64,000 nucleotides of DNA from Hymenobacter sp. APR13. GTDB lineage: Bacteria > Bacteroidota > Bacteroidia > Cytophagales > Hymenobacteraceae. Below are positions 38,805 through 51,494 of the stretch, one piece after another. The translations under genes and the position numbers were made by a program. The stretch's first letter is position 1; the number at the start of each line of letters is the position of its first letter. The stretch spans positions 1,553,001 through 1,617,000 of the forward strand of contig NZ_CP006587.1 of NCBI RefSeq assembly GCF_000737515.1. The letters run 5' to 3'. The notes below the pieces were generated by a model, which was given only the letters and a program-made list of their open reading frames with translations, was not told the DNA's origin and made no database searches.

Positions 38805-39482
38805 TTATTGCATCCGCCCCACCTTCGGAATCACCTGAATCAGGAAGCGTTTGTTGTCGCCTTCGCGGCGGCCCTGGTAGCGGCCGGTGCCGTAGAAGCC
38901 GCTGCCCCCAATGATGAGCTCGATGCCGCGGTCCTGGCCGAAATTGAGGCCGTTCTGCTTCCAGAGGTTGAGCAGGTTGAGGGCCCGGCGGTAGCTGAGC
39001 TGGTAGGTGGTCTGCTCCTCGCGGGCGTTGCGCGGGTCGCCCTGGGGGTAGCGCGCGGCCATGCCCTCCACTATCACGAGGTAACGCACGGGCTGGTCGG
39101 TTTTGATGCTCTTGAGCACCGTGCGCAGGGTGCGGCCGGCTTGCAGCAGAGCAGGCTTGTAGCTGTCCTGGATTTCGTCGCGGCCGGCTTTGAACTGCAC
39201 GGGCACCAGCAGCTCGTGCCGCTCGTTGGTGGGGTCGTAGCGGAAGTAGCGGCCCTCCAGCTGCTGCAGGGAGCGTCGGATTTTGGTAATCTGCTCCAGC
39301 TCGGCGGCCTTGGCTTTCAGCTCGCCGTTGGCCTGCTTCAGCTCCCCTTCCCGGTCCTTGAACAGCTTGAAGCTGTACACGAACAGCACCAGCATCACCA
39401 CGAACAAGGACGTCATCAGGTCCACGTAGCTGGGCCAGAAGAAGTCGTTGCTTTGGCGTTTGTTGGAGGTGGCGTTGTTCAT
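38805..39482 (-). CDS. MotB/ZorB-like membrane protein with OmpA domain (last gene of motor-cytoskeleton cluster)
   Basis: 225 residues. One membrane helix at 20-39 (YVDLMTSLFVVMLVLFVYSF) contains Asp21 at the position where MotB and ZorB have their ion-carrying aspartate. A coiled coil of about 30 residues follows (REGELKQANGELKAKAAELE). The C-terminal half is an OmpA/MotB peptidoglycan-binding-like domain (LLVPVQFKAGRDEIQDSYKP, YLVIVEGMAARY, LSYRRALNLLNLWKQNG). It should pair with the MotA/ZorA-like protein at 39994 as an ion-driven motor across the inner membrane. It is the 3'-most gene of the cluster. Confidence 0.8.
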   Translation of the reverse strand: MNNATSNKRQSNDFFWPSYVDLMTSLFVVMLVLFVYSFKLFKDREGELKQANGELKAKAAELEQITKIRRSLQQLEGRYFRYDPTNERHELLVPVQFKAGRDEIQDSYKPALLQAGRTLRTVLKSIKTDQPVRYLVIVEGMAARYPQGDPRNAREEQTTYQLSYRRALNLLNLWKQNGLNFGQDRGIELIIGGSGFYGTGRYQGRREGDNKRFLIQVIPKVGRMQ

Positions 39483-39504
39483 GAAAAGGAGGCAATACGA
39501 TGTT

Positions 39505-39981
39505 CTAAAACCTGTTGCTAGATGTCCTTACATTGTTGATTTCAATCAACTTAACAACCTGCTTTTTCAATGAAACAGAGGAGTCGTAAGTGACGCATTT
39601 ATCACTAATGATCTTCGAATAGTAGTTGTTAACGAGTTGCCTATGCTCCAGCTGGCCTCTGCCATTTTGAGCATATTGCAATTCATTTCCAACCTTGATA
39701 ACAACCCGATAATTAGCAGACGTGTGGTTGGTCGCGCTCCGTCCAAAATAATAAACGCCGTTACCTCCGCATACTTCCAGTGTCTTCACAATAGTGTCGG
39801 CGGCAAAGATGTATTTCGTCCTATCAACGTCCGGACGAATTATCAATCGTTTGATAAGCTCATCGTTGTACAGGTTGTTGTACTGAGCAGGAATTTTGAC
39901 TCTGACTATCCCGCTTTGCTGAGCATACCCGACGAATGAAGAACTCAGACAAAATCCTAAAACCGCTAGACACTTCTTCAT
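39505..39981 (-). CDS. Small exported protein, AT-rich, interleaved in the motor cluster
   Basis: 158 residues with a signal peptide (MKKCLAVLGFCLSSSFVGYAQ). The mature part (GIVRVKIPAQYNNLYNDELI..., YIFAADTIVKTLEVCGGNGVYYFG...) has no recognised family. Base composition is visibly richer in A+T than the genes on either side, with codons such as ATA, TTA and AAT. Spacing is 12 bases after the ZorA-like gene and 22 bases before the ZorB-like gene, so it sits inside an operon between two proteins that are expected to work as a pair. It may be a late insertion. Confidence 0.7.
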   Translation of the reverse strand: MKKCLAVLGFCLSSSFVGYAQQSGIVRVKIPAQYNNLYNDELIKRLIIRPDVDRTKYIFAADTIVKTLEVCGGNGVYYFGRSATNHTSANYRVVIKVGNELQYAQNGRGQLEHRQLVNNYYSKIISDKCVTYDSSVSLKKQVVKLIEINNVRTSSNRF

Positions 39982-39993
39982 AAACGCTAAGGG

Positions 39994-41454
39994 CTACTGC
40001 GGCTTCACCCCGCCAAACAGCTTGTCCATAAACCGCTGGAAACGGTTCTTCGACGTGGCTTTCACCAGCACCGTGTTCAGGCTGGAGAGTTCCAGCAGCA
40101 GCTTGGCTTGCACCTGCGAGTCCAATTCGATTTTGCGCAGCAGCTCGCGCTGGGTGGCCGTGACGTCGCGGCTGAGGTCGGCTTGTTGCACGTTGAGGTT
40201 CTGGAAGGGCTCCAGCTGTTTCAGCAGCTTCTCGAAGACGTTGTCGGCGTTGAGCTGCTCGAAATACTGCTGCCACTTCTCGTAGGCCAGCTGGGCCTGC
40301 CGCTCGTTGTAGGCCAGGCGCTTGTTCATCACGTCGGCGAGGCCCACGCCGGCCTGGTCGATGTGCTGCTCGGCGCGGTCCTTGAGGTTGCGCAGCTCCA
40401 CCTGGTGTTTCTGGAAGAAATCCAGCATCAGCTGCACCGAGTTGTTGTTGCCGCCGATGTACTGGCCCAGGTCGTTGATACCTTTTTCGAAACCCCGCAG
40501 CCGGTCCAGAATACTGTTCACGGCCTCGGCGGAGTGGTAGCCGTTCTGCAGCATCTCGTTCAGGCGCTGCTGGTAGCCGGTGAAGGCGCTGAACATTTCC
40601 GCCGACTCGCGCACTTTCTCAAACACCAGAATATTGGCCGCCGCCATCTTGTCGTAGCCGATGGTGTCGAGGCGCTCCAAGAAGTCGCTCTGCACCCGGA
40701 TGTTCTGCGTCACTTTCTCCATGAGCGGGTTGAACAGCTCCACCTGGCCCACAAACTGCTGGTTGAAGGCATCGAGCACCGACTTGAGGTTGGTGAGCGA
40801 GCTGGCCATATCGGCGTGCAGCACCGGCAGCAGGCGGGCCTGCAGGAAGGTGTAGTACTGGTTCTGGAGCCGATCCAGCTGGTGGCGGGCCTGGCGCAGC
40901 ACGCCGTTGCCGAGCAGCGTGAGCAGCAGCCCCACAAAGGAGCCCGTCATGGCAATGAGCACGCCGGTGAGGAAAGGCGTCAGCGCGTTTTCATCCGACA
41001 CGCCGTTGCGGGCAATGCCCACGAGGCCCAGAATCACGCCCAGAAACGTGCCCAGCAGCCCCAGGTAGAGGGGAGTGGCCACCTCGGCCTGCACTGCATT
41101 GTCCAGCACCTCGCTCTGGCGCTCCGAAATGTCCTTCAGAATCCCAAAATCGGCCGCTGCGCCCTTGTTGTGGCGCAGGTAGTCGTTGGTATCGAGTAGG
41201 ATTTCCTGGAACTCGGGCGAGGCGTTTTCGGCCTTGAGCAGGTTGGAGGCGAAGGATTCGGGCGGGGCGTCGGCGGCGTACTCGGGCAGGTCGCGGCCGT
41301 CGGGCAGCACAATGCGGTGCTCCACGCGCAGGCTTTCCTTGGGCGGATACAGCACGGCCAGTCGCCGGGCATTGGCCCGCGTCCGCAGAAACGTGCGAAT
41401 CTGCAGCCCCACCACCACGGTCACCACCAGAACTTCGAGGATGATTTCAAGCAT
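39994..41454 (-). CDS. MotA/TolQ/ExbB/ZorA-like ion channel subunit with long helical tail
   Basis: 486 residues. Membrane helices are at about 3-20, 127-147 (TPLYLGLLGTFLGVILGLVG) and 162-184 (LTGVLIAMTGSFVGLLLTLL), the latter two resembling the MotA/TolQ/ExbB proton channel core. The remaining ~300 residues are cytoplasmic and helical (LDRLQNQYYTFLQARLLPVL and on), much longer than MotA or ExbB but like the ZorA tail of Zorya phage-defence systems. It ends FQRFMDKLFGGVKPQ. With the ZorB-like protein downstream it forms an ion-powered unit. ZorC/D/E-type genes are absent. Confidence 0.8.
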   Translation of the reverse strand: MLEIILEVLVVTVVVGLQIRTFLRTRANARRLAVLYPPKESLRVEHRIVLPDGRDLPEYAADAPPESFASNLLKAENASPEFQEILLDTNDYLRHNKGAAADFGILKDISERQSEVLDNAVQAEVATPLYLGLLGTFLGVILGLVGIARNGVSDENALTPFLTGVLIAMTGSFVGLLLTLLGNGVLRQARHQLDRLQNQYYTFLQARLLPVLHADMASSLTNLKSVLDAFNQQFVGQVELFNPLMEKVTQNIRVQSDFLERLDTIGYDKMAAANILVFEKVRESAEMFSAFTGYQQRLNEMLQNGYHSAEAVNSILDRLRGFEKGINDLGQYIGGNNNSVQLMLDFFQKHQVELRNLKDRAEQHIDQAGVGLADVMNKRLAYNERQAQLAYEKWQQYFEQLNADNVFEKLLKQLEPFQNLNVQQADLSRDVTATQRELLRKIELDSQVQAKLLLELSSLNTVLVKATSKNRFQRFMDKLFGGVKPQ

Positions 41455-41481
41455 AGAACAGTAAAGTACGGCATTCCCACG

Positions 41482-41582
41482 CTGTCATCCTGACGAAGGA
41501 AGGACCTTATCACGTTAGAACAAGCCACTATTACGAGGTTCGTTCAAACGTAAAAAGGTCCTTCGCAAGCTCAGGATGACAG
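41482..41582. repeat. Imperfect inverted repeat between ZorA-like gene and Pro/Ala-rich gene
   Basis: Arms 41482-41507 (CTGTCATCCTGACGAAGGAA...) and 41556-41582 (...CTCAGGATGACAG) are complementary with small gaps. This resembles the CTGTCATTCCGA family in outline. It may weaken transcription between two cluster genes. Confidence 0.65.
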
Positions 41583-41589
41583 ACGGTGT

Positions 41590-43020
41590 CTACTCAAACC
41601 GGATGGCAGCTTTCTGCTCGATCTGCCAGGAGCCGGCGGCTTTGCGCAGCACGCCTTCTTCCTCCGTCACGATGCGCGTGACCGGACCGGCGGGCTGCTG
41701 GTATTTGCAGGCTTCACGCAGGGAATATTGCGCGCTCTGGATGGCGTAGGCGTGCACGGCGGGGTTCTGCGTTACGCTGAACGTGGCCAGCTCGGGCCAC
41801 TGCGGGTCCAAGTGAATCTCGTAGATGCTGTCGTGCTGGGGCTCGTCGGAGAAGTCGTACTCGTTGAACACGCCGTTTACGGGTACCTTCACGTAGCGCG
41901 TGCGGGGCAGGTCGGCGGCGGATACGGCCGGGGCAGCGGCGGGCGCAGTTGGCAGCTGCACGGGCGGTATCAGGCTGTCGAACTCCTCCTGCGGAGCGGC
42001 GGGGCTGGTTACCGGGGCAGCCGGGGCAACCGTGGGCGGCACCGGAGCCGGCGCGGGCGCTGCAGCCGGTACGGGTGGGACTACCGGGGCCGGCGCAGGC
42101 GCTACGGGCTGCGGAGCCGGGGCAGCGGGAGCTACGTTGGCTTTAGGCGCGGCCTGACGCTTCTGCAACTCCTGCTCCACGCGCTGCTGAATCAATTGTT
42201 CCAACTCGCGCAGCTGGGCCGGCGAGAACCGCTCGGCGGGTTTGCTGCTGCTGCCGGGCGTTGTTTGCAGGGCCAGAATTTCGTCCCGACGTTTGTCGAT
42301 GCGGGCGCTCAGCTCCTTCTGAAACTCCCCGAGGCTCTTGCGCATCAGTGCGTACAGCACCAGGCTCAGCAGGGCCAGAATCAGCCCCAGAGGGCCGAAA
42401 AACTTGTTCATCAGGCTTTCCCCGGCCCCGGATGCGGCGGCTGGTGTAGGAGTAGCCACACCCGCCTCGTCCAGACCAGCGTCGCCGGGGGCGGCAGCCG
42501 TGGCCTCGTCGGTGGTGGCGGTGGTGTCCACGGTTTCGGTTTCGGCGGCGGCTTCGGCCGCGGGCAGGTCGCCGATGGGCGTGCCCTGGTCGAGGTAGTT
42601 TTTCAGGGCCGTTTCCAGCTTCGTTACGCCGGCCAGCCGGGCGGCATTGCCCTTGCGCGAAGGAGACGTGCGCAGCCGGTTGATGATTTCGCGCACCAGC
42701 GTCTGCAGGCGGGAGTTGTCGGAGCCCAGGCCCTTGTACATCACGCCCTGCACTTCCAGCGGTTGGTACAGCGCCGAGTACACGCGCTGCTCATCGGCCT
42801 TGATGCTGCCGGCAAACTCCTTCAGCGGACCGCCGCATTTCAACTGGCTTTTCAGTTCCGGGTGGCCCGTGTCTTCGTATACGAACTTGGCCGTAGCGCA
42901 CCAGATTTGCACTTTGCGCTCCTCCAGCGTGGGCTGGCCGAGGGGTGTTTGGGCATGGCCGCCCGCCGCGAGCAGCAGCAGGCCGGTAAGCAAAGAAGCA
43001 ACGCGGCGGGAAAGGGTCAT
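41590..43020 (-). CDS. Pro/Ala-rich single-span membrane protein of the cluster
   Basis: 476 residues. A signal peptide (MTLSRRVASLLTGLLLLAAG) is followed by a periplasmic helical domain with Cys41 and Cys62 in ATAKFVYEDT/KSQLKCGGPL-type sequence (to ~residue 140). One membrane helix (MNKFFGPLGLILALLSLVLY, near 204-226) leads to a cytoplasmic coiled coil (GEFQKELSARIDKRRDEILA). A ~90-residue Pro/Ala linker and a compact C-terminal domain (YVKVPVNGVFNEYDFSDEPQ..., HAYAIQSAQYSLREACKYQQ) follow. No known family is recognised. It could connect a periplasmic sensor with cytoplasmic cluster partners. Confidence 0.75.
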   Translation of the reverse strand: MTLSRRVASLLTGLLLLAAGGHAQTPLGQPTLEERKVQIWCATAKFVYEDTGHPELKSQLKCGGPLKEFAGSIKADEQRVYSALYQPLEVQGVMYKGLGSDNSRLQTLVREIINRLRTSPSRKGNAARLAGVTKLETALKNYLDQGTPIGDLPAAEAAAETETVDTTATTDEATAAAPGDAGLDEAGVATPTPAAASGAGESLMNKFFGPLGLILALLSLVLYALMRKSLGEFQKELSARIDKRRDEILALQTTPGSSSKPAERFSPAQLRELEQLIQQRVEQELQKRQAAPKANVAPAAPAPQPVAPAPAPVVPPVPAAAPAPAPVPPTVAPAAPVTSPAAPQEEFDSLIPPVQLPTAPAAAPAVSAADLPRTRYVKVPVNGVFNEYDFSDEPQHDSIYEIHLDPQWPELATFSVTQNPAVHAYAIQSAQYSLREACKYQQPAGPVTRIVTEEEGVLRKAAGSWQIEQKAAIRFE

Positions 43021-43047
43021 AGGGTGTTGGGGGTAGAAAGGAACGGA

Positions 43048-43570
43048 CCTGGTTCCCAGGGTTGAAACCTTGGGCTAGTCAGCGGAAGGATAAGCGGGAG
43101 CAGCCGTTATCAACTATTCGGTTTCAAGTAGCCATTTATTCTGAAGATTCCTTCTGCCTCGTCAAATGGAATGGAGTGTTTACACAAAGCCTGTCGAACC
43201 CACGAGCTAAAATCAGAAGTGGACTTATCTACCAACTGCCCCACATAGGTTCGGCGGGTCGAATCAATTTCTATCCACTCTATTATTCGTGCATCCCCGA
43301 GCTTGACCCATTCCCAGTCAAGGTGACAAAAGCTACTCCCAGCCACCGGGTCATCCAAATACTTGATGCGTACCTCCGGATTGAACTCTGGATGAGAAGT
43401 CATTTCCTGCGCCAGTTCCTTCCATTTCGTCCGGTTCATGACGGATGAAAGCTGGTTCGCGAAAATGAACTCCGTTAGCTTGTCATTTTGCATAAGACCA
43501 GACACTTTACTGCTAATCTTTTCAGAAGCATAGCCGCTGCCTAGCCCAGGGTTTCAACCCTGGGCCACCG
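43048..43570. repeat. Inverted repeat pair flanking the small AT-rich gene at 43110
   Basis: The left copy 43048-43085 (GGTTCCCAGGGTTGAAACCT..., CAGCGG) and the right copy 43534-43570 (CCGCTGCCTAGCCCAGGGTT...) are inverted relative to each other with few mismatches. They bracket one gene only, in the manner of terminal repeats. A third, lone copy is near 38772-38791. Confidence 0.75.
43110..43505 (-). CDS. DUF6678-like small protein, AT-rich, bracketed by inverted repeats
   Basis: 131 residues, cytoplasmic. The pattern MNRTKWKELAQEMTSHPEF ... ARIIEWIEIDSTRR ... WVRQALCKHSIPFDEAEGIF, RINGYLKP resembles DUF6678 as I recall it (usual start 'N-TKW-EL'); the true start may be the second ATG at residue 23 (43439). 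Base composition is richer in A+T than neighbours. It sits between two cluster genes and inside an inverted repeat pair, which suggests later insertion. Function is unknown. Confidence 0.65.
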   Translation of the reverse strand: MSGLMQNDKLTEFIFANQLSSVMNRTKWKELAQEMTSHPEFNPEVRIKYLDDPVAGSSFCHLDWEWVKLGDARIIEWIEIDSTRRTYVGQLVDKSTSDFSSWVRQALCKHSIPFDEAEGIFRINGYLKPNS

Positions 43571-43581
43571 CGCCAGTAGTG

Positions 43582-46500
43582 TTACGCCTGCAGTTCGCGG
43601 CTCAGGTTGTACAGCGCCTGTTTCAGCGGCAAGAAAAACAGGGTTTCCGGCAGAGTTTCGTCGCTGGAAAGCTGGCGCTGGAACTGGTGCAGGCCCAGGC
43701 TCAGGCTGTCCTCGATTTCGCGGAGCAGGATGTCTTTCACGCGCTGACGGTCCACGTCCACGCCTACTTCGCGCAGGTAGGGCGCTACGTCGTCGCCTTC
43801 GAGCACGAGGGTGAGGTAGTTGCGCACGTTGTCGAGCACCGTGTTTTTCAGCTCGGCATCTACCTGGTTTAGTTTGAGGCGCTGCTGGTTGAGTTCGGTG
43901 CCTTCCACGGCGCCGCTGTACTTCACGGGCTTGATGTTGTCGTAGTCGGTGGTGGTTTTCTCCTCGAACAGCACGCCGCCGTTGGTGGTGGCTTCCTTGG
44001 GGTTGTCGGCCAGGATGACGCGGAAGTTATGGGGCGGCTCCACGCCCGTCACAGCCTGGAAGATGGCCTTCGTAATCTTCTCAATGGCCACCAGCGAGCT
44101 GCCGCCGGCCAGCAGGCGCAGGTAGAGGCTGCCTTTGCCCGAGAAGCACAGGTAGCGCGGCGTTTTAAGGCCGAGGTGCTTGGTAAGCTGGGCCGTGTGG
44201 TAGATGATGCTGGTGTAGTGCAGGTAGAACAGCACCCGCAGCTGCCGGCCCTTACCGAGGCCCAGCGCCTGGGTGAAGCGCAGGGCATCATCGTACTTGA
44301 ACAGCAGGCTGGTCACGTCGGCGGAGCCGAAATCGGTATTGCTGAGGGCGGCGCGCAGGTAGCCTTTGTACTCCTGGTTTTGCTCGGAGTCGGGCAGGCT
44401 TTCCACGTGGCCCACACCGAGGCGCAGCAGGCCGTTCTGCTTGGGCGCGCCCTGCACGCGGGCGTAGCCATCGCCCCACAGGTCATCACCGGCGAAGCGG
44501 AACGAGGTGCTGTAGGCCGGTTTCTGGTCGGCGAAGAGCAGCAAGTCGGTGGTGCCGCCACCGATGTCGATGTTCACCACGTTTTCGTCGCGGTTGGGTA
44601 CTACCTGGTTGGTGGCGGTGAGGTAGTAGTACGGGGCCACCGACTCGGTGAGGCAGATAGTAGCGCGGCGCGTTTTGAACACCTGCTGGAACGACTCATC
44701 CCACACCTGCTGGAACTGGTTGCGCAGGAACCCATCGAAGCTCAGCGGCGCAAACCACACCACGCGGGTGTCTTCCAAGATGCCACCGTGCAAGGCCGCC
44801 TTGTGGCGCAGCAGCAGCAGAATTTCCCGGAAAAACGCCTCAATGCGGGCCACGCCCTGCGGGTCCAGCTCGGCCGACCACTTCAGGTTGGTCACGAACC
44901 GGTTCTGGGGCAGCTCGGCCGTGTTTTCGGTGTTGATGCTGAAGCCGATGTTGATGTTGCTGAGCACCTTGGCCGGCTCGTTGGCAAACGACGTAGTTTC
45001 GCACACGGCCGTCCGAATCGGAAACTCATACACCGAGCCGCCTTCGCCCACGAACGAGGGCACAAACTCGCGGTTTTGTAGCGTGGCAATGTTGTCCCAG
45101 ATCTGGCCGGCGCCCGTACGGTAGCGTTGCGCGGCCGAAAGCCCCTGATCAGCTACCGGCGCGTGCAGCCACTCCACCTGTACATCGGCCTCGCCAATGG
45201 TAAGTGGGCGCGGATGGGCGCTCGGCGAATCGGCGTAGGCAATGTGGGTGTTGGTGGTGCCGAAGTCGACAGCAAACGTGAAGCGGCGGGTGCCGCGGTC
45301 CAGCTCGCGCCAGCGCGGCACCAGCAGGCCCCGGGCCGGCTCCGCCCCGATGGTGGCGGGCGGGCAGGTCAACTCCGCAAGGTCGAAGTGGGTGCCAGTG
45401 ACTTCATAGTAAGTGCTGCCGGCAGTAGCCATACTCTTCTGGGTGCGCTCATAACGGGTGGCGCGGCGGGCGGCCCCCTGCTCCGTAATTCGCTCCCCAT
45501 TCACGAAGAACGTGAGGTCGTAGCGGCGGTTGAGCATGGTGGGCGCGTTGTCGGCATCCACCAGCATCACTTTGTAGAGGTCATTGTACTCGGGCTGGTA
45601 GCGCACCTTGTAGAACGGGAACACGCCCACGCCCACGGCGGCCTTCACAATGCGGCCCTTCTCCAGAATCTCGCGGCCCTGGGCGTCCTTGGGGTTCTGC
45701 GGATTATGGTAGTAGCTGCGCTCGAAGGTGATGAAGCGGCCCGCCTGCACCGGCACCCGCAGCTGCACGCGCACGTGGCTCAGGTCGATGGTGAAGGTAA
45801 GCAGCTCGGCCAGCTCGTTTTCGGTGAAATACTCAAAAAACGCCTGTTTCAGCGGCAGCAGGTACGGAAAACGCGCCCGGCCCTGACCATCAGCCCCGTA
45901 CTGGAACGTGACTTTGCCGGTGTGGAAGCGCTGGGTGTTCAGCTCGTAGGGCAGCTCCACCAGGGAGTCTTCCAGCAGGTCGCCCACCGTCAGGTAGGGG
46001 TACTTGAAGCCTTTGCCGGGCAGCACGCGGCTTTCCAGCGCCACCTCGTCGTAGTAGGGCACCGGCGTGCGGTCGTCCCAGGGCTGGCCGTTGAGGTAGT
46101 TGGCGCCGGGCATCGTCAGGTTGGGGCGCAGCACTAACGGGCGCGGCCGGCCCGTCGTCGATTCGCGGGTGGGCTGGATGAACAGGTCGGAGCTGGTCAC
46201 GGCCGACTGGTCGGCGCGGCCAGGCAGGGGCACGCCTTTCACGCTCACCAGGTTGCCCTGTACGTCGGCCAGGGCCGGGTAGCGGGCGGCAAACTGCTGG
46301 GCGCTCCGGTCGCCCTGCATCTGAAGCTGGTTGATTTTCGAGCGGTCGAGGCCGGCGTATACGCTACCGGCAAACTCGCGGCGCTGCAGCTGCGGATAGG
46401 CCAGAAACAGCTCGTACACGAACTCCCGGAACTGCGGGTCGCGGTCTTCGAGCAGCACGGTCTGCTGGTCGAAGTAGTGGCCGCGGGCCTGGGGCCGCTC

Positions 46501-47046
46501 CAGGTCCAGGGGCGTCACGGCGGGGCCGGTGAACAGGATGGTCAGCGGCGAGGTACCGCCCAGCAGGCGCGTACCGCCCGCCAGCTCCGGCGACTCATAG
46601 TACACCAGGTACATGTCGGAGAAGTCGCGGAACCGCTCGTCCTGCATGTACAGCTGCAGGGTTTCGCCTAATAGGCGCGTGCCCTCGTCTTGCCGCATCC
46701 GGCGGATTTCGGCCTCGGCATTCCAGCGGCGCAGCGTGATTTTACGGCCGGCCTGGGTGTAGAGGTGGTAGTTGTAGAGCAGCTCCAGCAAATCCCAGAA
46801 GTGGGTGGTCAGCTCGTGGTACACCGAGCCGGGGTTGCGCTGCCCCTCCCGGGCCAGGAAGTCGAAAGCCGTTTCAAACAGGTGCATCCGCGCAAACGGC
46901 GTCGGGATGCTCACGGCCAGGTTGCGCGACTTGCCCCCCGCGGGGTCGGTCACGGTGTTGATTTCGGTGCTGGTGACGGGGGCGGTTTTCTGCCAGCCCT
47001 GCACCTGCTGGGAGCCGTTGTTATGTAAGCGAAGGACTTTGGCCAT
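43582..47046 (-). CDS. Giant actin/Hsp70-fold ATPase with unique N-terminal half
   Basis: 1154 residues, no signal peptide. The first ~585 residues have no recognised family and look globular (FETAFDFLAREGQRNPGSVY, SVKGVPLPGRADQSAV). The second half is an ASKHA-type ATPase: phosphate-1 loop VDFGTTNTHIAYADS with Asp594, phosphate-2 loop VNIDIGGGTTDLLLF with Asp827, and a later Gly-rich adenosine-type segment (RYLCFSGKGSLYLRL). Bacterial members with this fold work as chaperones or filaments. The substrate-binding domain of Hsp70 is missing. It is the largest product of the cluster and probably the ATP-driven cytoplasmic component. Confidence 0.85.
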   Translation of the reverse strand: MAKVLRLHNNGSQQVQGWQKTAPVTSTEINTVTDPAGGKSRNLAVSIPTPFARMHLFETAFDFLAREGQRNPGSVYHELTTHFWDLLELLYNYHLYTQAGRKITLRRWNAEAEIRRMRQDEGTRLLGETLQLYMQDERFRDFSDMYLVYYESPELAGGTRLLGGTSPLTILFTGPAVTPLDLERPQARGHYFDQQTVLLEDRDPQFREFVYELFLAYPQLQRREFAGSVYAGLDRSKINQLQMQGDRSAQQFAARYPALADVQGNLVSVKGVPLPGRADQSAVTSSDLFIQPTRESTTGRPRPLVLRPNLTMPGANYLNGQPWDDRTPVPYYDEVALESRVLPGKGFKYPYLTVGDLLEDSLVELPYELNTQRFHTGKVTFQYGADGQGRARFPYLLPLKQAFFEYFTENELAELLTFTIDLSHVRVQLRVPVQAGRFITFERSYYHNPQNPKDAQGREILEKGRIVKAAVGVGVFPFYKVRYQPEYNDLYKVMLVDADNAPTMLNRRYDLTFFVNGERITEQGAARRATRYERTQKSMATAGSTYYEVTGTHFDLAELTCPPATIGAEPARGLLVPRWRELDRGTRRFTFAVDFGTTNTHIAYADSPSAHPRPLTIGEADVQVEWLHAPVADQGLSAAQRYRTGAGQIWDNIATLQNREFVPSFVGEGGSVYEFPIRTAVCETTSFANEPAKVLSNINIGFSINTENTAELPQNRFVTNLKWSAELDPQGVARIEAFFREILLLLRHKAALHGGILEDTRVVWFAPLSFDGFLRNQFQQVWDESFQQVFKTRRATICLTESVAPYYYLTATNQVVPNRDENVVNIDIGGGTTDLLLFADQKPAYSTSFRFAGDDLWGDGYARVQGAPKQNGLLRLGVGHVESLPDSEQNQEYKGYLRAALSNTDFGSADVTSLLFKYDDALRFTQALGLGKGRQLRVLFYLHYTSIIYHTAQLTKHLGLKTPRYLCFSGKGSLYLRLLAGGSSLVAIEKITKAIFQAVTGVEPPHNFRVILADNPKEATTNGGVLFEEKTTTDYDNIKPVKYSGAVEGTELNQQRLKLNQVDAELKNTVLDNVRNYLTLVLEGDDVAPYLREVGVDVDRQRVKDILLREIEDSLSLGLHQFQRQLSSDETLPETLFFLPLKQALYNLSRELQA

Positions 47047-47080
47047 TTGCTGCTTGGAAAGGTCTTTTTTGGGTGTGGTT

Positions 47081-47569
47081 CTAACGATAATTCTCTAGCA
47101 ATCTGCCTATATCATGCTGCGGGTTATCCGCAAACAGATCATCATACCCACCGAAAGCATTTTTCTCTGTAGTCGGAATAAAAGTCAGGGTAGCGTACTC
47201 ATTGTGATAAATATGAGACGACAATTTCTTACCGTCTGCAAATGAGAAGACTACTTCTACCTCCCAGTCGCCAGGTATTCGCCCTTGGCCTATTCGGTAT
47301 TTAGATAAGCCCTTGTAATAGCGTACCAGCGTGTTGATAAACGTTGAGTCTTTTATGACTACAGCTTTATTAACGATAGATGGCCTGGAAGGAAAAGGCG
47401 CTAAGGTGACTGATGTGACATTAGCTGCTTCTAGTTTCTGAAGTTCTAATTGTCCCTGTTGCACATGGGTACGACTAGAGGAAGACGAAGAAACCTGTAG
47501 CACAAGAAAACCTGCTAAGAACCCTAATAGAAGCAAGCCTTTAATCTTGATACTCATCCTACAAGTCAT
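47081..47569 (-). CDS. Small membrane-anchored protein, AT-rich, interleaved in the cluster
   Basis: 162 residues. An N-terminal membrane segment (IKGLLLLGFLAGFLVLQVSS) precedes a stretch of six Ser and a periplasmic alpha/beta domain (WEVEVVFSFADGKKLSSHIY, LTFIPTTEKNAFGGYDDLF). The start could be Met1 or Met5. It is clearly richer in A+T than its neighbours. It lies 34 bases before the ATPase gene and about 90 bases after the tubulin-like gene. No family or function is recognised. Confidence 0.7.
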   Translation of the reverse strand: MTCRMSIKIKGLLLLGFLAGFLVLQVSSSSSSRTHVQQGQLELQKLEAANVTSVTLAPFPSRPSIVNKAVVIKDSTFINTLVRYYKGLSKYRIGQGRIPGDWEVEVVFSFADGKKLSSHIYHNEYATLTFIPTTEKNAFGGYDDLFADNPQHDIGRLLENYR

Positions 47570-47599
47570 TCAGGTAAACAACATCAGCGCGCGGGCAAA

Positions 47600-47654
47600 C
47601 CACCCCAGCCGCGCCTTCGGCACGGCGTCCCCTCCTTTCCAAGGAGGGGAGTTT
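47600..47654. repeat. REP-like repeat with CCCCTCCTT hairpin, copy A
   Basis: Contains the perfect hairpin TCCCCTCCTT (47628-47637) / AAGGAGGGGA (47641-47650) next to a CCACCCCAGCC segment. Two further copies lie at 49129-49187 and 49242-49280, so copies flank the tubulin-like gene on both sides. The hairpin begins just after the tubulin-like stop and may end or attenuate that transcript. Confidence 0.8.
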
Positions 47655-47659
47655 TCGTT

Positions 47660-49108
47660 CTACACCACTTTCACTTTCTCCTCAAACGCCTTATCGGTCA
47701 CATTATAGAACAGCTCCAGCAGCTTGCGGAAGTTGTCGGGTTCCTGGATGGACTTCTCGGTTTTGTTGAGGTTGTCGAGCAGGTAGTTGTGGCTGAGGCC
47801 CTTGTTGAAGAAGTCGTTCCACTTCTTTTCCACCGGCTTACCCAGGATCATGGCGTTGAAGTCGTCGGTCTGCAGGTCGAAGGGGCGGAAGGCGCGGCGG
47901 TTTTGGGCCAGCTCTTGCAGCCACTGGTCTACGCCCGAGTCCTGGCTGTGCAGGAAGGTGTTCAGCTCCCGGAAGATGGGCTCGTTGCGCATGGCGTAGT
48001 CCAGCTTCAGATTGTCGGCGTAGGGCGCTTTGTCGGTGGGCAGGTGCTGCTTGTGGTAGCGCGTGAAGTACAGGAACTGCGTGAGCTGCTTGGCCATGAT
48101 TTCCCGCGTCTCATCGGGCAGGTGGCTGAACTGAATTTCCGGCGCGTCGGTCTGTAGGCCGTACTCGTGGAAGTGCGGGCCGCCGGTGCGCAGCTCGGTG
48201 GGCGAGTAGCGCATGAAATCCACGATGCTCAGGGCCGCCAGCAGCTCAATCACGTGGGCCTTGTTCTTCTGCTGGGTACCGCCGGGCTGGTTTTCGTAGG
48301 GCGTGTCGGGCGTGTCGGCGAGGTAGTACAGCGCGTCGAGACCCTGCAGGTTGTGCTCGTAGTAGCTGAGCGCCGCCTTGGTCTTGGTGAGGAAGTTGTT
48401 GGAGTCGATGACGGCGTTGTCCTCGCTCTGGAGGGCGAAGTAGGGCATCACCGTCACGGCGCCGGTGGGGGCGTCGCGCAGGTAACGGGCGTTACTGAGG
48501 CGGGTGTTCGAATCCTTCAGGTTCTTGAGCATCAGCGGGAAGCCCGCCGCGCCCGTGCCGCCGAAGATGCTCGACACGAAGAACACCCGGTCGCCGTCCT
48601 GGAAATTATCGGCGAAAAACCGCATTTCCGGGCTTTCCACCAGCTTATTCAGCACAATGCTGCCCACGTTGGGTGAGCCGCGGAAGCCAATGGTGAGCGG
48701 GCTTTCCAGGTTATCCTGCGTAAACAGCAGATCCACCAACCCTTTCGAGTCCACGCTCAGCCCGTCGTAGCTCAGGTACTGCCGGAAGCTCTGGTTGATG
48801 CCGCCGAAGTCGAAGATGAAGGTGTCCTTCACCGAGCCGTTCACGTCCTGCGAAATGCCGCTCAGCGTGCTGATGTCTGTCTTGAAGAAGCCTTCTTCGC
48901 GGGGGCCGAGGCGCTTGTAAATCTGCTGGTAGCTCTGCAGCAGCTGCACCGTGCGGTTCATGTCGCCGTTGTGCGCGTCGGGGTCGATGATGATGGGCAC
49001 CACCCGGTCGCAGTTGGGCAGGTCCACGCCCGCCGCCAGCAGCATCGTGAGCGAGCGAATCACGCGGGAACCCGTGCCGCCAATACCGAATAAAAAGAGT
49101 TTAGCCAT
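47660..49108 (-). CDS. FtsZ/tubulin-like protein (Tubulin_2 type)
   Basis: 482 residues, cytoplasmic. The N-terminus MAKLFLFGIGGTGSRVIRSL has the G-x-G-G-x-G phosphate loop of the tubulin/FtsZ nucleotide fold. Residues 179-191 (SSIFGGTGAAGFP) match the tubulin signature loop that binds GTP phosphates. The rest is unlike FtsZ: no C-terminal FtsA/ZipA-binding tail and no recognisable T7 catalytic NxDxxD motif in my reading. This fits the FtsZ-like families linked with VWA and OmpA-domain proteins in a predicted membrane-remodelling system. GTPase and polymerising ability are inferred. Confidence 0.82.
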   Translation of the reverse strand: MAKLFLFGIGGTGSRVIRSLTMLLAAGVDLPNCDRVVPIIIDPDAHNGDMNRTVQLLQSYQQIYKRLGPREEGFFKTDISTLSGISQDVNGSVKDTFIFDFGGINQSFRQYLSYDGLSVDSKGLVDLLFTQDNLESPLTIGFRGSPNVGSIVLNKLVESPEMRFFADNFQDGDRVFFVSSIFGGTGAAGFPLMLKNLKDSNTRLSNARYLRDAPTGAVTVMPYFALQSEDNAVIDSNNFLTKTKAALSYYEHNLQGLDALYYLADTPDTPYENQPGGTQQKNKAHVIELLAALSIVDFMRYSPTELRTGGPHFHEYGLQTDAPEIQFSHLPDETREIMAKQLTQFLYFTRYHKQHLPTDKAPYADNLKLDYAMRNEPIFRELNTFLHSQDSGVDQWLQELAQNRRAFRPFDLQTDDFNAMILGKPVEKKWNDFFNKGLSHNYLLDNLNKTEKSIQEPDNFRKLLELFYNVTDKAFEEKVKVV

Positions 49109-49128
49109 GAGTTGCTGATGTTGAACAA

Positions 49129-49280
49129 AACTCCCCTCCTTGGAAAGGAGGGGACGCGGCGGCTTTAGCCGACGCTGGGGTGGTTGATTCGTTGCTGATG
49201 TTGTTTATCAAAACAACCCAAACGTCATCGTCCAACGATTATCAACCACCCCTAGCCCCTCCTTTCCAAGGAGGGGAACT
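49129..49280. repeat. Inverted pair of REP-like repeats, copies B and C
   Basis: Copy B (49129-49187) and copy C (49242-49280) face each other. Both contain CCCCTCCTT...AAGGAGGGG and a GGGGTGGTTGA/TCAACCACCCC flank. Between them is a duplicated GTTGCTGATGTTG phrase (49111-49123 and 49191-49203). They fill the gap between the tubulin-like gene and the small membrane protein gene. Confidence 0.8.
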
Positions 49281-49297
49281 AACTTTTAGCTTTAGCT

Positions 49298-49690
49298 CTA
49301 GAACGGTGTCGTGCTGGCGTTGGTGGAGGCGCGCTTGAGCAGCATGGAGAACAGGAAAAACCAGAACATACCCAGGATGGCGTTCCAGGTGGCCAGCCAG
49401 TAGATGTAGCTGTGGTCGGTGACCTGCTGGGCGTTGGTCTGCCAGATGGTGACGAAGAAGGAAATCAGCGCATTCAGACCCAGGAAGATGGCCCAGTGCC
49501 GGCCCTTGTTGAAGGTAGCCACGCCCATGGCCCGGTTGATGAGCAGATAGAACATCACCACCAGCCCCAGCGAAACGCCCAGGTTCAGCAGCCCCAGGTT
49601 GGGGAAGATAACGTCGCGGTACACGGGGGTATCGGCGGGTGGTTGGGGGGCGCCGATGAGTTCGTAGAGGAAACGGAAGAGTGCTTTCAT
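49298..49690 (-). CDS. Three-helix membrane protein of the cluster
   Basis: 130 residues. Membrane helices are at about 32-52 (LGLLNLGVSLGLVVMFYLLI), 66-83 (WAIFLGLNALISFFVTIW) and 98-118 (WLATWNAILGMFWFFLFSML). There is a short polar tail ASTNASTTPF. No family is recognised. It lies between the VWA lipoprotein and the tubulin-like gene, and may be a membrane tether for the tubulin-like protein; this is inference. Confidence 0.75.
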   Translation of the reverse strand: MKALFRFLYELIGAPQPPADTPVYRDVIFPNLGLLNLGVSLGLVVMFYLLINRAMGVATFNKGRHWAIFLGLNALISFFVTIWQTNAQQVTDHSYIYWLATWNAILGMFWFFLFSMLLKRASTNASTTPF

Positions 49691-49857
49691 GAAAGGAAGT
49701 AACGCGAAGTTTCCCTTCGCGGGTGATGGAACGATACGACGAGGGGCGAAATTGTCAGGGGCGCGAAGCTTTTGCTTCGCGCGGTGTTGAACGACTATCG
49801 TGCCAAGTAATGTGGCGAGCAGTGTGCGTTTGTACGCGAAGCAAAGGCTTCGCGCTA
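49691..49857. repeat. Repeat-filled gap with GCGAAGC hairpins
   Basis: Contains three short palindromes built on GCGAAG/CTTCGC: ACGCGAAGTTTCCCTTCGCG (49702-49721), GCGCGAAGCTTTTGCTTCGC (49761-49780) and TACGCGAAGCAAAGGCTTCG (about 49833-49852). These can pair with each other or within themselves. No gene is supported; a promoter for the small membrane protein was not recognised. Confidence 0.65.
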
Positions 49858-51228
49858 CTACTCGGCGGGCTGTACGGTCAGGGGCAGCTCAAACACCGGG
49901 CGCTTCTCCCCGGCCGCCTGCGGCTCCAGGCCATCGAGCAGGGAGATGAGGGCGAAGGTTTTGGGCGCGGGCGTGCCATCGTTGCGAGTGGTCCACTGGG
50001 CTACCCAGGCGGGGCGCTGGTCCTGGAGACGCAGCACCAACGGGCGGGCCGCTTTGGGCGCTTTCGTGAGGCGGATTTTGGCGAAGTGCGTGAACTTGCT
50101 TTCCGGGCCGCTGCTGGCCTTGGTCTGGGCTGAGGCAGCCTGCACGTCGAGCAGCTTGGCATCCGTGTCCACGCCCTGCAGGGTCAGGTTCTGCTTAAGG
50201 TAGGCCACGTCGCGGTACTGGCCGGGCATCTGCGCCAGGTTCAGGCCCACCACAAACTCCACCGGCTGCTGCGCCGAGGCTTCCGATACGGCCACCACGC
50301 GGTAGGCGTCGGCGGTGCGCTTGCTGGCCCCGGCGTCGCCGTAGTACCAGCTGCCCTTATTCTGGAACTTGCTCAGCAGCGAATACGCCGGCCTTGGGTA
50401 CGTAACGCCGAAGTGGGCCTGCTTTGCGGGCTGCTGCTCCAGCAACGCGGCATCAAACTGCCGCACCGCCGCCGCCGGCCCCAGCACCCAGATGTAGTAG
50501 GGAATTTCGGTGTCGCAGCAGGCCGTTTTCTTACCGGCCGCCTTCAGCGCTGGGTAGTATGTGCCCCGGAAATCCGAGGTGTAACCGTACACCGACACGG
50601 CCAGCTCCGGCTGCGCGCCGTTGCGCTGCAGGGCGTCAGTAATGTCGGTTTTGATGTAGGGAATGGCCCCGGCGTTTTTCGGGGAGTAGATGAAGTCCGA
50701 AATCAGCACGCTCACGGTGCTAGGCTGGTAGTAGCGCGTCATCAGCGTATCGAGCACGGCGGGCAACTCGGTGCTTTTGGCTGGCTGCTGAATACCACTG
50801 CGCACCGTTGCCGAAATACCCTGGTAGGTATCGGCGTAAGGCTTCTCCTTGATGCGGAAAAACGCCTTTTTCCGGGCGGCCGGCGTCCGGTTGATTTCCG
50901 AGAGCAGCTGCGCCACATGCTGCTGAAACTTAGTATTCTCGCCGCTGGCCCCGGTTTTGGGCATGAAGCCTTCCATCGAGCCCGATACTTCCAGGAACAC
51001 GTTCACGGCCTGCAACGGCTGGGCAGCGGCGCCACTGACCACATCAGTAGCTTCTTCGGAAGCATCGGGCGTCGGCGTGGCGGCGGGCGTAGCAGCCGGC
51101 GTTTCCGTTTTGGTATCCGCGGCGGCCTCCTCTCCTTTCATATCGGAGCGGGAGTAGCAGCCGGGCAGCAGGAGCAGCGTCAGGCCCAGGGCGGGCAGCA
51201 GGCGGGGGAAGGAGGTCGGGTAGCGCAT
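49858..51228 (-). CDS. VWA-like lipoprotein (first gene of the motor-cytoskeleton cluster)
   Basis: 456 residues from the ATG at 51228, which gives a lipoprotein signal (LGLTLLLLPGC, Cys24). A Thr/Ala/Pro/Glu-rich linker of about 45 residues leads to a von Willebrand A-like fold: VNVFLEVSGSMEGF at 76-89, with Glu80 where the metal site normally has Asp (DxSxS), then STVSVLISDFIYSPKN. The C-terminal part is beta-rich (VVAVSEASAQQPVEFVVGLN). Lipidation places it outside the inner membrane, on the opposite side from the tubulin-like and ATPase proteins. VWA proteins are known companions of this FtsZ-like family. Confidence 0.78.
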   Translation of the reverse strand: MRYPTSFPRLLPALGLTLLLLPGCYSRSDMKGEEAAADTKTETPAATPAATPTPDASEEATDVVSGAAAQPLQAVNVFLEVSGSMEGFMPKTGASGENTKFQQHVAQLLSEINRTPAARKKAFFRIKEKPYADTYQGISATVRSGIQQPAKSTELPAVLDTLMTRYYQPSTVSVLISDFIYSPKNAGAIPYIKTDITDALQRNGAQPELAVSVYGYTSDFRGTYYPALKAAGKKTACCDTEIPYYIWVLGPAAAVRQFDAALLEQQPAKQAHFGVTYPRPAYSLLSKFQNKGSWYYGDAGASKRTADAYRVVAVSEASAQQPVEFVVGLNLAQMPGQYRDVAYLKQNLTLQGVDTDAKLLDVQAASAQTKASSGPESKFTHFAKIRLTKAPKAARPLVLRLQDQRPAWVAQWTTRNDGTPAPKTFALISLLDGLEPQAAGEKRPVFELPLTVQPAE

Positions 51229-51494
51229 CGGGCTAAAGTAACGACAATCTGCCCGCAGCGGATACATGGAGAGTAACTGAGTAGCGGAGTAACTGAGTAA
51301 TTGTTCTGTCAACCAGCACAATTACTCAATTACTCCGCTACGTCGTTGGCAGTAGCGCAAACTTTGTAGTTCGCGTATTCACGCCGCAAGAAGAACCTGC
51401 CCGAACGGCGCGGGGACGCGAACTACAAAGTTCGCGCTACTTAGCTACCTGGCAGCACGATTACTCCGTTACTCCGCTACGCAGTTACTCTCCC
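51229..51494. repeat. Nested inverted repeats upstream of the cluster
   Basis: The outer arms 51269-51303 (GAGAGTAACTGAGTAGCGGA...) and 51460-51492 are complementary. An inner partner of the left arm is at 51319-51341. Inside them lies a pair of the element TAGCGC(A/G)AACT.../...AGTTCGCGCTA (51353-51375 and 51417-51439), also present at 27481-27510. The sequence between the VWA gene and the NDP-sugar gene is almost entirely repeats. The only -7-like motif for the cluster is TACTTTAG at 51240-51233, too close to the ATG to be convincing. Confidence 0.75.

Follow-up and report, generated by a model that had tools for sequence, protein, structure and literature searches.

As a rule, proteins of the tubulin fold and proteins of the actin fold form distinct filament systems. 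Among the described gene clusters closest to the one reported here are the FtsZl1/vWA/OmpA operons of Makarova and Koonin (2010), in which GTPases and protein kinases are frequent partners (PMC2875224), and FtsZl1 has been equated with the Tubulin_2 family (PMC9871819). Kaur et al. (2020) predicted DO-GTPase/GAP1 conflict systems with tubulin, vWA or HSP70 (PMC7159879), and a role as force transducers was put forward in 2025 for vWA-type proteins next to 5:2 motors (PMC12204202). We describe a gene cluster at positions 38805-51228 of a 64,000-nucleotide stretch from a Hymenobacter genome of 5.0 Mb (Hymenobacter sp. APR13; the whole stretch, G000:C1:1553001-1617000, is called the window), in which a tubulin-like and an actin/Hsp70-like protein are encoded together.

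We will show, by sequence and predicted fold, that the genes of these two proteins (TUB and ACT) are a single genetic unit together with those for a lipoprotein (VWA) and for a pair of membrane proteins (TM3 and PA), usually with the addition of a ZorAB/MotAB-type stator (MOTA and MOTB). Our preferred reading, which is a tentative one, is that the unit encodes a conserved trans-envelope machine, carried on the chromosome outside a defence island.

Gene order and linkage

An earlier note on this DNA had proposed that seven genes pointing in one direction belong together, and the neighbourhoods bear this out. All seven are open frames on the minus strand, transcribed in the order VWA, TM3, TUB, ACT, PA, MOTA, MOTB, and this order is complete in 37 of the 40 loci from Hymenobacter; L020, L021 and L039 stop at contig ends. 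The intergenic distances are 12-189 bases, accessory genes counted. The seven conserved genes are given first in the following list, and then three accessory genes that are interspersed among them on the same strand and are not conserved.

49858..51228, minus strand: VWA, a lipoprotein of 456 residues with Cys24 and the motifs FLEVSGSM and SDFIYS, resembling a metal-ion-dependent adhesion site (MIDAS); from the open reading frame and motifs
49298..49690, minus strand: TM3, an inner-membrane protein of 130 residues with three hydrophobic regions; from hydropathy and alignment
47660..49108, minus strand: TUB, a tubulin/FtsZ-fold protein of 482 residues and of the Tubulin_2/FtsZl1 kind, with the G-box SIFGGTGAAG; from profiles and predicted fold
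43582..47046, minus strand: ACT, a protein of 1154 residues with an actin/Hsp70-fold ATPase domain at about 586-1036; from motifs and predicted fold
41590..43020, minus strand: PA, a Pro/Ala-rich membrane protein of 476 residues; from the open reading frame, hydropathy and alignment
39994..41454, minus strand: MOTA, a ZorA/MotA-like channel subunit of 486 residues; from PF01618, ZorA2 and hydropathy
38805..39482, minus strand: MOTB, a ZorB/MotB-like subunit of 225 residues with one transmembrane (TM) helix bearing Asp21 and an OmpA-like periplasmic domain; from profile matches and alignment
47081..47569, minus strand: P162, a variable accessory gene outside the core, with a single hydrophobic N-terminal segment by hydropathy; in 3/40 Hymenobacter loci at 36-40% identity
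43110..43505, minus strand: DUF6678 gene, a variable accessory gene outside the core (PF20383, E=1.4e-35); in 1/40 Hymenobacter loci
39505..39981, minus strand: P158, a variable accessory gene outside the core, secreted-type by eye; in 4/40 Hymenobacter loci

The linkage was also surveyed at the level of the order, in 241 genomes at E<=1e-6 (for ACT, the genomes are listed from close to distant relatives, and 160 without a match are unlisted). ACT was found in 61 of these genomes, TUB in 70 and MOTB in 44. TUB is present in all 61 ACT genomes, within 12 kb in 57 of them, and MOTB is present in 37, within 12 kb in 33; the Fisher p-values for linkage are 6.8e-48 and 1.8e-20 with shared ancestry ignored. 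Of the four more distant MOTB genes, two lie near a contig end (G383, G433) and one is in a genome of short contigs (G368), and only that of G040 is a real exception. In this 9.0 Mb single contig, VWA/TM3/TUB, ACT/PA/MOTA and MOTB occupy three separate sites and none has been lost. In nine genomes TUB was matched and ACT was not at the threshold, and among the five of them that were inspected, a distant ACT is nearby in three (L132, L133/L155, L136) and none was seen in two (L134, L137).

A closer analysis of 50 loci, which took 5 of L001-L040 and excluded the short loci L041-L052 and L068-L097, found all seven genes in 33 loci and the five-gene core VWA/TM3/TUB/ACT/PA without MOTA/MOTB in 10. 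Two loci with split open reading frames, L127 (7067-12354, TUB and ACT) and L058 (6317-7800, TUB), were included in these counts; the splits in these otherwise complete clusters represent either decay or assembly errors. A chance neighbourhood can be rejected, since gene order and linkage recur over the Hymenobacter loci, the genomes of the order and the 50 loci.

Within the genus, 36 of 37 genomes gave a match, each at a single locus (in four of them the matches are split), and the negative genome is 82% complete; within the family, ACT is present in 28 of the 29 listed genomes. Farther away, VWA-TM3-TUB-ACT-PA is kept in a Prevotella locus (L152), and L148 and L149 have VWA-TM3-TUB-ACT-MOTA-MOTB without a PA match, each locus ending within MOTB. 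TUB and ACT also occur with a weak VWA (5e-18) and an HSP70 gene in L136, with three TerD genes and an OmpA gene in L154, and with an OmpA gene in L101. All named ACT relatives among the matches listed are Bacteroidota (two protein searches with 120 matches each, largely the same set and most of them nameless, in which only 7992 candidates were scored).

A search of 50,697 phage records for TUB gave no match, and of 72,556 plasmid records just one, a 1.77 Mb replicon, matched ACT. Cargo of mobile elements was rejected on these counts; three IMG/VR contigs that carry TUB, each with VWA and TM3 beside it, do exist. In a further observation, the core VWA-TM3-TUB-ACT-PA adjoins genes that by eye resemble phage structural genes on the IMG/VR contig L151 (8210-17269).

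As for the intergenic DNA, a hairpin palindrome with a 10-bp stem, TCCCCTCCTTTCCAAGGAGGGGA, flanks TUB on both sides (window 49109-49297 and 47570-47659; genome C1:1600628, 1602132 and 1602255). It has 27 genome matches at <=1 mismatch, compared to 0 for the reversed control, and with several copies arranged as opposite-orientation pairs about 100 bases apart, it is an intergenic repeat resembling repetitive extragenic palindromes or miniature inverted-repeat transposable elements. Upstream of the VWA gene, at 51281-51341, there is an inverted repeat with 28-nt arms, 93% complementary and spaced by 5 nt. In the window, the Rfam scan gave 0 matches and the tRNA scan 0 tRNAs, and the promoter and terminator scan was near chance level.

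Folds and motifs of the products

Structure predictions were made for TUB and ACT, and they return the two folds that the earlier note had expected. The TUB model, with a predicted local distance difference test (pLDDT) score of 84.7, is predicted to have the tubulin fold of the GTPase domain: all 50 PDB rows listed are tubulin, FtsZ, CetZ or TubZ entries, where chains from microtubule complexes were counted as tubulin on their length. The residues G183-G186 (GGTG) are invariant in 19 of 19 rows, and the protein carries the GGTGxxG G-box. The suggested connection to Tubulin_2/FtsZl1 holds for the family, PF13809 matching 12 of 19 members at E<=0.01; the window protein itself reaches 14.6 bits against a cut-off of 27, and the fused relative P0065 exceeds this cut-off with 34 bits.

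For ACT (model pLDDT 83.2), all 50 PDB rows listed are MreB/Mbl, Hsp70-family proteins or ParM, and residues 586-1036 are predicted to form an actin-like ATPase fold of the Hsp70/MreB kind, with a long strand-rich region on the N-terminal side and a helical C-terminus. The window protein, to which the ACT of H. rigui and that of Hymenobacter sp. BT190 are 100% identical, has the motifs VDFGTTN (phosphate-1), IDIGGGTTD (phosphate-2) and FSGKGS (adenosine); among 47 rows, the corresponding patterns are found in 42, 43 and 41, respectively. TUB and ACT are fused into one polypeptide in L112 and P0065, which start alike and were counted as one lineage. L153 is probably a second, distant fusion as judged by hhalign (TUB part E=1.3e-8, ACT part 3.7e-6), with a MotA-like gene (1.7e-6) after it and a possible MotB-like gene that has a 16-column match only (probability 9%, E=0.0035) and gave no match in the PADLOC search.

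We now consider the stator pair. MOTA scores just under the cut-off of 22.9 against PF01618 in hmmscan (21.4) and over it in the genome search (23.4), and it matches PADLOC ZorA2 with E=1.9e-4. It has three hydrophobic segments by hydropathy and would bear a long cytoplasmic helical tail; T136, S172 and T179, invariant in 16 rows, lie inside hydrophobic segments and may line the pore. MOTB matches PADLOC ZorB1 (E=6.8e-13) and, in PDB profiles, 8vvn ('MotB-related', 8e-11) and 8qyd (2.9e-7), whose companion entries 8qyh and 8qyy contain ZorA. Its Asp21 is invariant in 15 of 15 rows, and a TM Asp is present in 33 of 33 loci with MOTB. By sequence, it is thus right to regard MOTA/MOTB as an ion-driven stator of the MotAB/TolQR/ZorAB kind, as had been proposed; what does not stand is its constancy, the ten core loci mentioned above being without it. 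In the ACT tree, stator presence requires at least 3 changes among 43 rows.

MOTB also occurs without ACT, in seven genomes, and the three f18 loci that were inspected have an adjoining MOTA; G412 has two tandem MotB-like genes without a MOTA match. A lone MOTA-MOTB pair of this subfamily, without TUB/ACT, is present in L129, L130 and L140, and on the IMG/VR contig L150 (1503-5687) such a pair adjoins a gene resembling the DarT toxin and a DUF6939 gene that weakly matches the NADAR antitoxin. Downstream of PA, related proteins of about 430-530 residues are encoded in five of the ten stator-less loci (L099, L113, L114, L116, L128) and in the stator-bearing L117, with WG-repeat matches in L099, L113 and L117. 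The protein of this size in L098 has a weak SH3 match and is hardly similar to the rest.

In VWA, Cys24 is invariant in 19 of 19 rows, a lipobox-like pattern is found in 37 of 44 loci, and the acidic-x-S motif in all 44, recognised by pattern in 42 of them and by eye in L107 and L127. The protein would sit on the periplasmic or outer-membrane side. TM3 is indeed a protein with three hydrophobic regions by hydropathy, in agreement with the three-helix membrane protein described earlier, and its residues Y48, W66, S115 and P129 are invariant across 19 aligned rows. PA has an N-terminus that looks signal-like by eye, a single TM helix at 203-231, a Pro/Ala-rich linker and a conserved C-terminal region, and Pfam gave no family common to more than one of 17 PA members.

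The proposed machine and its rivals

With the linkage, predicted folds, motifs and fusion given above, we infer co-assembly, membrane tethering, force and the use of ion flow, GTP and ATP in the following manner. TUB and ACT would co-assemble in the cytoplasm, controlled by GTP and ATP, and TM3 and PA would hold this assembly at the inner membrane. MOTB would anchor the stator in the peptidoglycan, and ion flow past its membrane Asp would turn MOTA, whose cytoplasmic tail would work against the TUB/ACT assembly. VWA would bind or sense something at the periplasmic or outer face, and the force would cross the envelope to serve remodelling, repair or attachment on a local scale. The stator, given that the core is also found without it, would be a module for power or sensing added to a constant part made up of VWA/TM3/TUB/ACT/PA.

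A number of observations weigh against this reading. The canonical catalytic T7 loop of tubulin and FtsZ is NxDxx(D/E), and TUB appears to conserve NxxHxxE in its place (N282, H285 and E288 are invariant in 19 aligned rows). The ATPase motif patterns of ACT are missing from three distant loci (L101, L124, L125) and only partly present in four others (L113, L118, L119, L121); Hsp70 scores as high as MreB for ACT, which may be a chaperone-like switch instead of a filament. Since 24 of the 61 ACT genomes are without a MOTB match, force by ion flow cannot be general. The lipoprotein had earlier been credited with a VWA-like site; the MIDAS-like motif and Cys24 are there and the fold is not seen, none of the 19 family members being matched by Pfam vWA models at E<=0.01 and no vWA coming up among PDB profiles at E<=5. 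The name VWA is taken from the motif, and a vWA fold is unproven. Furthermore, the family genome G477 has no ACT, TUB or MOTB, so the system is dispensable, and across the phylum it is sparse, with TUB in 9 of 296 genomes and long ACT matches in 6 or 7. ACT-profile matches as such were obtained in 77 of the 296; those in 6 or 7 are long or in an ACT-size open frame, and the remainder, left uncounted, match over short motifs and are probably FtsA.

We have also considered a hybrid cytoskeleton, in which TUB/ACT co-assembly is driven by, or drives, a peptidoglycan-anchored, ion-powered rotary stator, such that GTP, ATP and the ion gradient are used together. We regard this as possible but doubtful.

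The history of the cluster bears on both the envelope machine and defence. The ACT tree covers 47 of the 50 loci (L100 and L123, which are short, and the broken L127 were excluded), and the family ACT proteins are one clade (SH-like approximate likelihood-ratio test 97, in a quick tree with long-branch warnings elsewhere). Hymenobacter is not monophyletic in ACT; three divergent types are interleaved with other family genera (approximately unbiased test, p=0.00017, 25 rows). At the chromosomal site of the window cluster, two genomes have a clade-II cluster adjoined by an orphan PA of the window type (L059 15756-17351, L060 2575-4188), which is 49-51% identical to the window PA, compared to 26% for the clade-II cluster's own PA. 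We read this orphan as a remnant left when the whole cassette was replaced. Eight other clade-II/III genomes have the nucleotidyltransferase flank at a large distance from the cluster. The cassette is thus nearly always kept, one per genome, yet its types are swapped. Over 40 clade-I loci, the median identity is 93.8% for TUB and 93.4% for ACT, against 86.8% for the neighbouring nucleotidyltransferase, and the most variable proteins are VWA (73.3%) and PA (56.6%). The flanking genes are housekeeping genes (PepSY, NTP transferase, LemA, TPM).

The first rival is a Zorya-type anti-phage defence, in which the ZorAB-like stator would sense envelope damage by phage injection and TUB/ACT would be an effector forming a containing or killing assembly. 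MOTB resembles ZorB, and the replacement of divergent cassettes within the genus, as seen in the ACT non-monophyly and the orphan PA, is also typical of defence loci and counts against the envelope machine. The MOTA-MOTB relative beside DarT- and NADAR-type genes in L150, the three IMG/VR contigs with TUB, VWA and TM3, the weak PADLOC match of the variable DUF6678 gene to the TIR-like ThsB (E=0.0038) and the high variability of VWA and PA, which would reach the periplasm, point in the same direction. On the other hand, 28 of 29 listed family genomes carry the cluster, ZorC/D/E match none of the ten cluster proteins, the phage and plasmid counts are near zero as given above, and TUB and ACT are more conserved than the neighbouring housekeeping gene. 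Near-universal presence in the family, one locus per genome and housekeeping flanks favour the chromosomal envelope-force machine over phage defence, whereas the cassette swapping keeps defence in consideration. Of the functions proposed earlier, defence is thus less favoured, and we consider it unlikely.

Quite unlikely, in our view, is a nucleoside-triphosphate-dependent stress or conflict system of the kind of Kaur et al. (2020), or a Ter-type system. ACT would then serve as a switch or chaperone in the manner of Hsp70, TUB as an effector whose assembly depends on GTP and VWA as a binding partner, with the stator as an add-on. Pfam at E<=1 gave no GTPase or GAP1-like match among the ten cluster proteins, and thus no DO-GTPase/GAP1 pair; VWA would be outside the cytosol, because it is a lipoprotein, and the near-constant carriage in the family is unlike that of a variable conflict system.

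A decidedly improbable alternative is membrane remodelling or vesiculation by TUB alone, along the lines of Makarova and Koonin (2010), with ACT as an FtsA-like membrane tether and the stator as a bystander locus. TUB is of the Tubulin_2/FtsZl1 kind, some ACT relatives are titled 'cell division protein FtsA' in public records, and the core lacks the stator in 10 of 50 loci, all of which would fit. However, MOTB is kept in 37 of 61 ACT genomes and lies within 12 kb in 33 of these, G040 retains it after the break-up of its cluster, and FtsZ is encoded elsewhere in the Hymenobacter genome that contains the window. Plain FtsZ or FtsA duplicates were rejected in view of that FtsZ and of the uncounted short ACT-profile matches that make up most of those in the phylum, and canonical Zorya on scores of 25.1 against 400 bits for ZorB1 and 14.7 against 500 for ZorA (NCBIfam cut-offs), without Zorya partners.

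Comparison with known systems

Turning back to the described systems with the tentative envelope machine in mind, the cluster shares with the FtsZl1/vWA/OmpA operons the combination of a Tubulin_2-type protein, a lipoprotein that may be of the vWA type, and membrane proteins, sometimes with an OmpA-domain protein, in a genome that also has FtsZ (PMC2875224). It differs in that the main text of the 2010 article names neither 'Hsp70' nor 'MotA' (0 occurrences, PMC2875224); ACT may be among the unnamed families of its supplement. No P-loop GTPase or protein kinase was found by Pfam among the ten cluster proteins, these partners being frequent and not constant in the 2010 operons. The DO-GTPase/GAP1 systems have a tubulin-fold protein and vWA in one theme, HSP70 in another, and membrane association (PMC7159879). 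Their tubulin theme is restricted to Firmicutes and Actinobacteria, and 'MotA' has 0 occurrences in the accessible text of the article (PMC7159879).

MOTA/MOTB share with Zorya ZorAB the TM Asp, the Ser/Thr positions, the OmpA-like domain and the long ZorA-type tail (PMC11890865). They differ in scores far below the NCBIfam cut-offs and in their other partner genes, no ZorC, ZorD or ZorE being found with PADLOC at E<=1 among the ten cluster proteins. In the case of the vWA transducers beside TolQ-like motors, the parallel is a genetic link between a vWA-type protein and a 5:2 ion motor in bacteria with two membranes; their vWA protein is tethered to the inner membrane, and no tubulin or actin partner is named in the accessible text (PMC12204202). 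Here, VWA is a separate lipoprotein of unproven vWA fold.

The Agl-Glt gliding machine of Myxococcus comprises the vWA lipoprotein CglB, the AglRQS motor and MreB. As an analogy only, it joins an actin-fold protein, an ion-driven stator and a vWA lipoprotein in one trans-envelope force chain; to our knowledge, it is without a tubulin.

Among open-licence PMC papers, preprints excluded, we found neither a description of a combined tubulin-actin-stator system nor a reported function for the FtsZl1/Tubulin_2 family. The conserved operon of tubulin, actin/Hsp70 and, usually, a stator suggests an undescribed envelope-crossing machine. An operon that pairs tubulin- and actin-fold proteins, fused in at least one lineage and usually accompanied by a stator, offers a concrete genetic entry to the question of how NTPases of the cytoskeleton could push on the bacterial envelope. 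The FtsZl1/Tubulin_2 family gains partners in environmental bacteria that are amenable to study, and ZorAB-like motors would operate with partners beyond those of Zorya.

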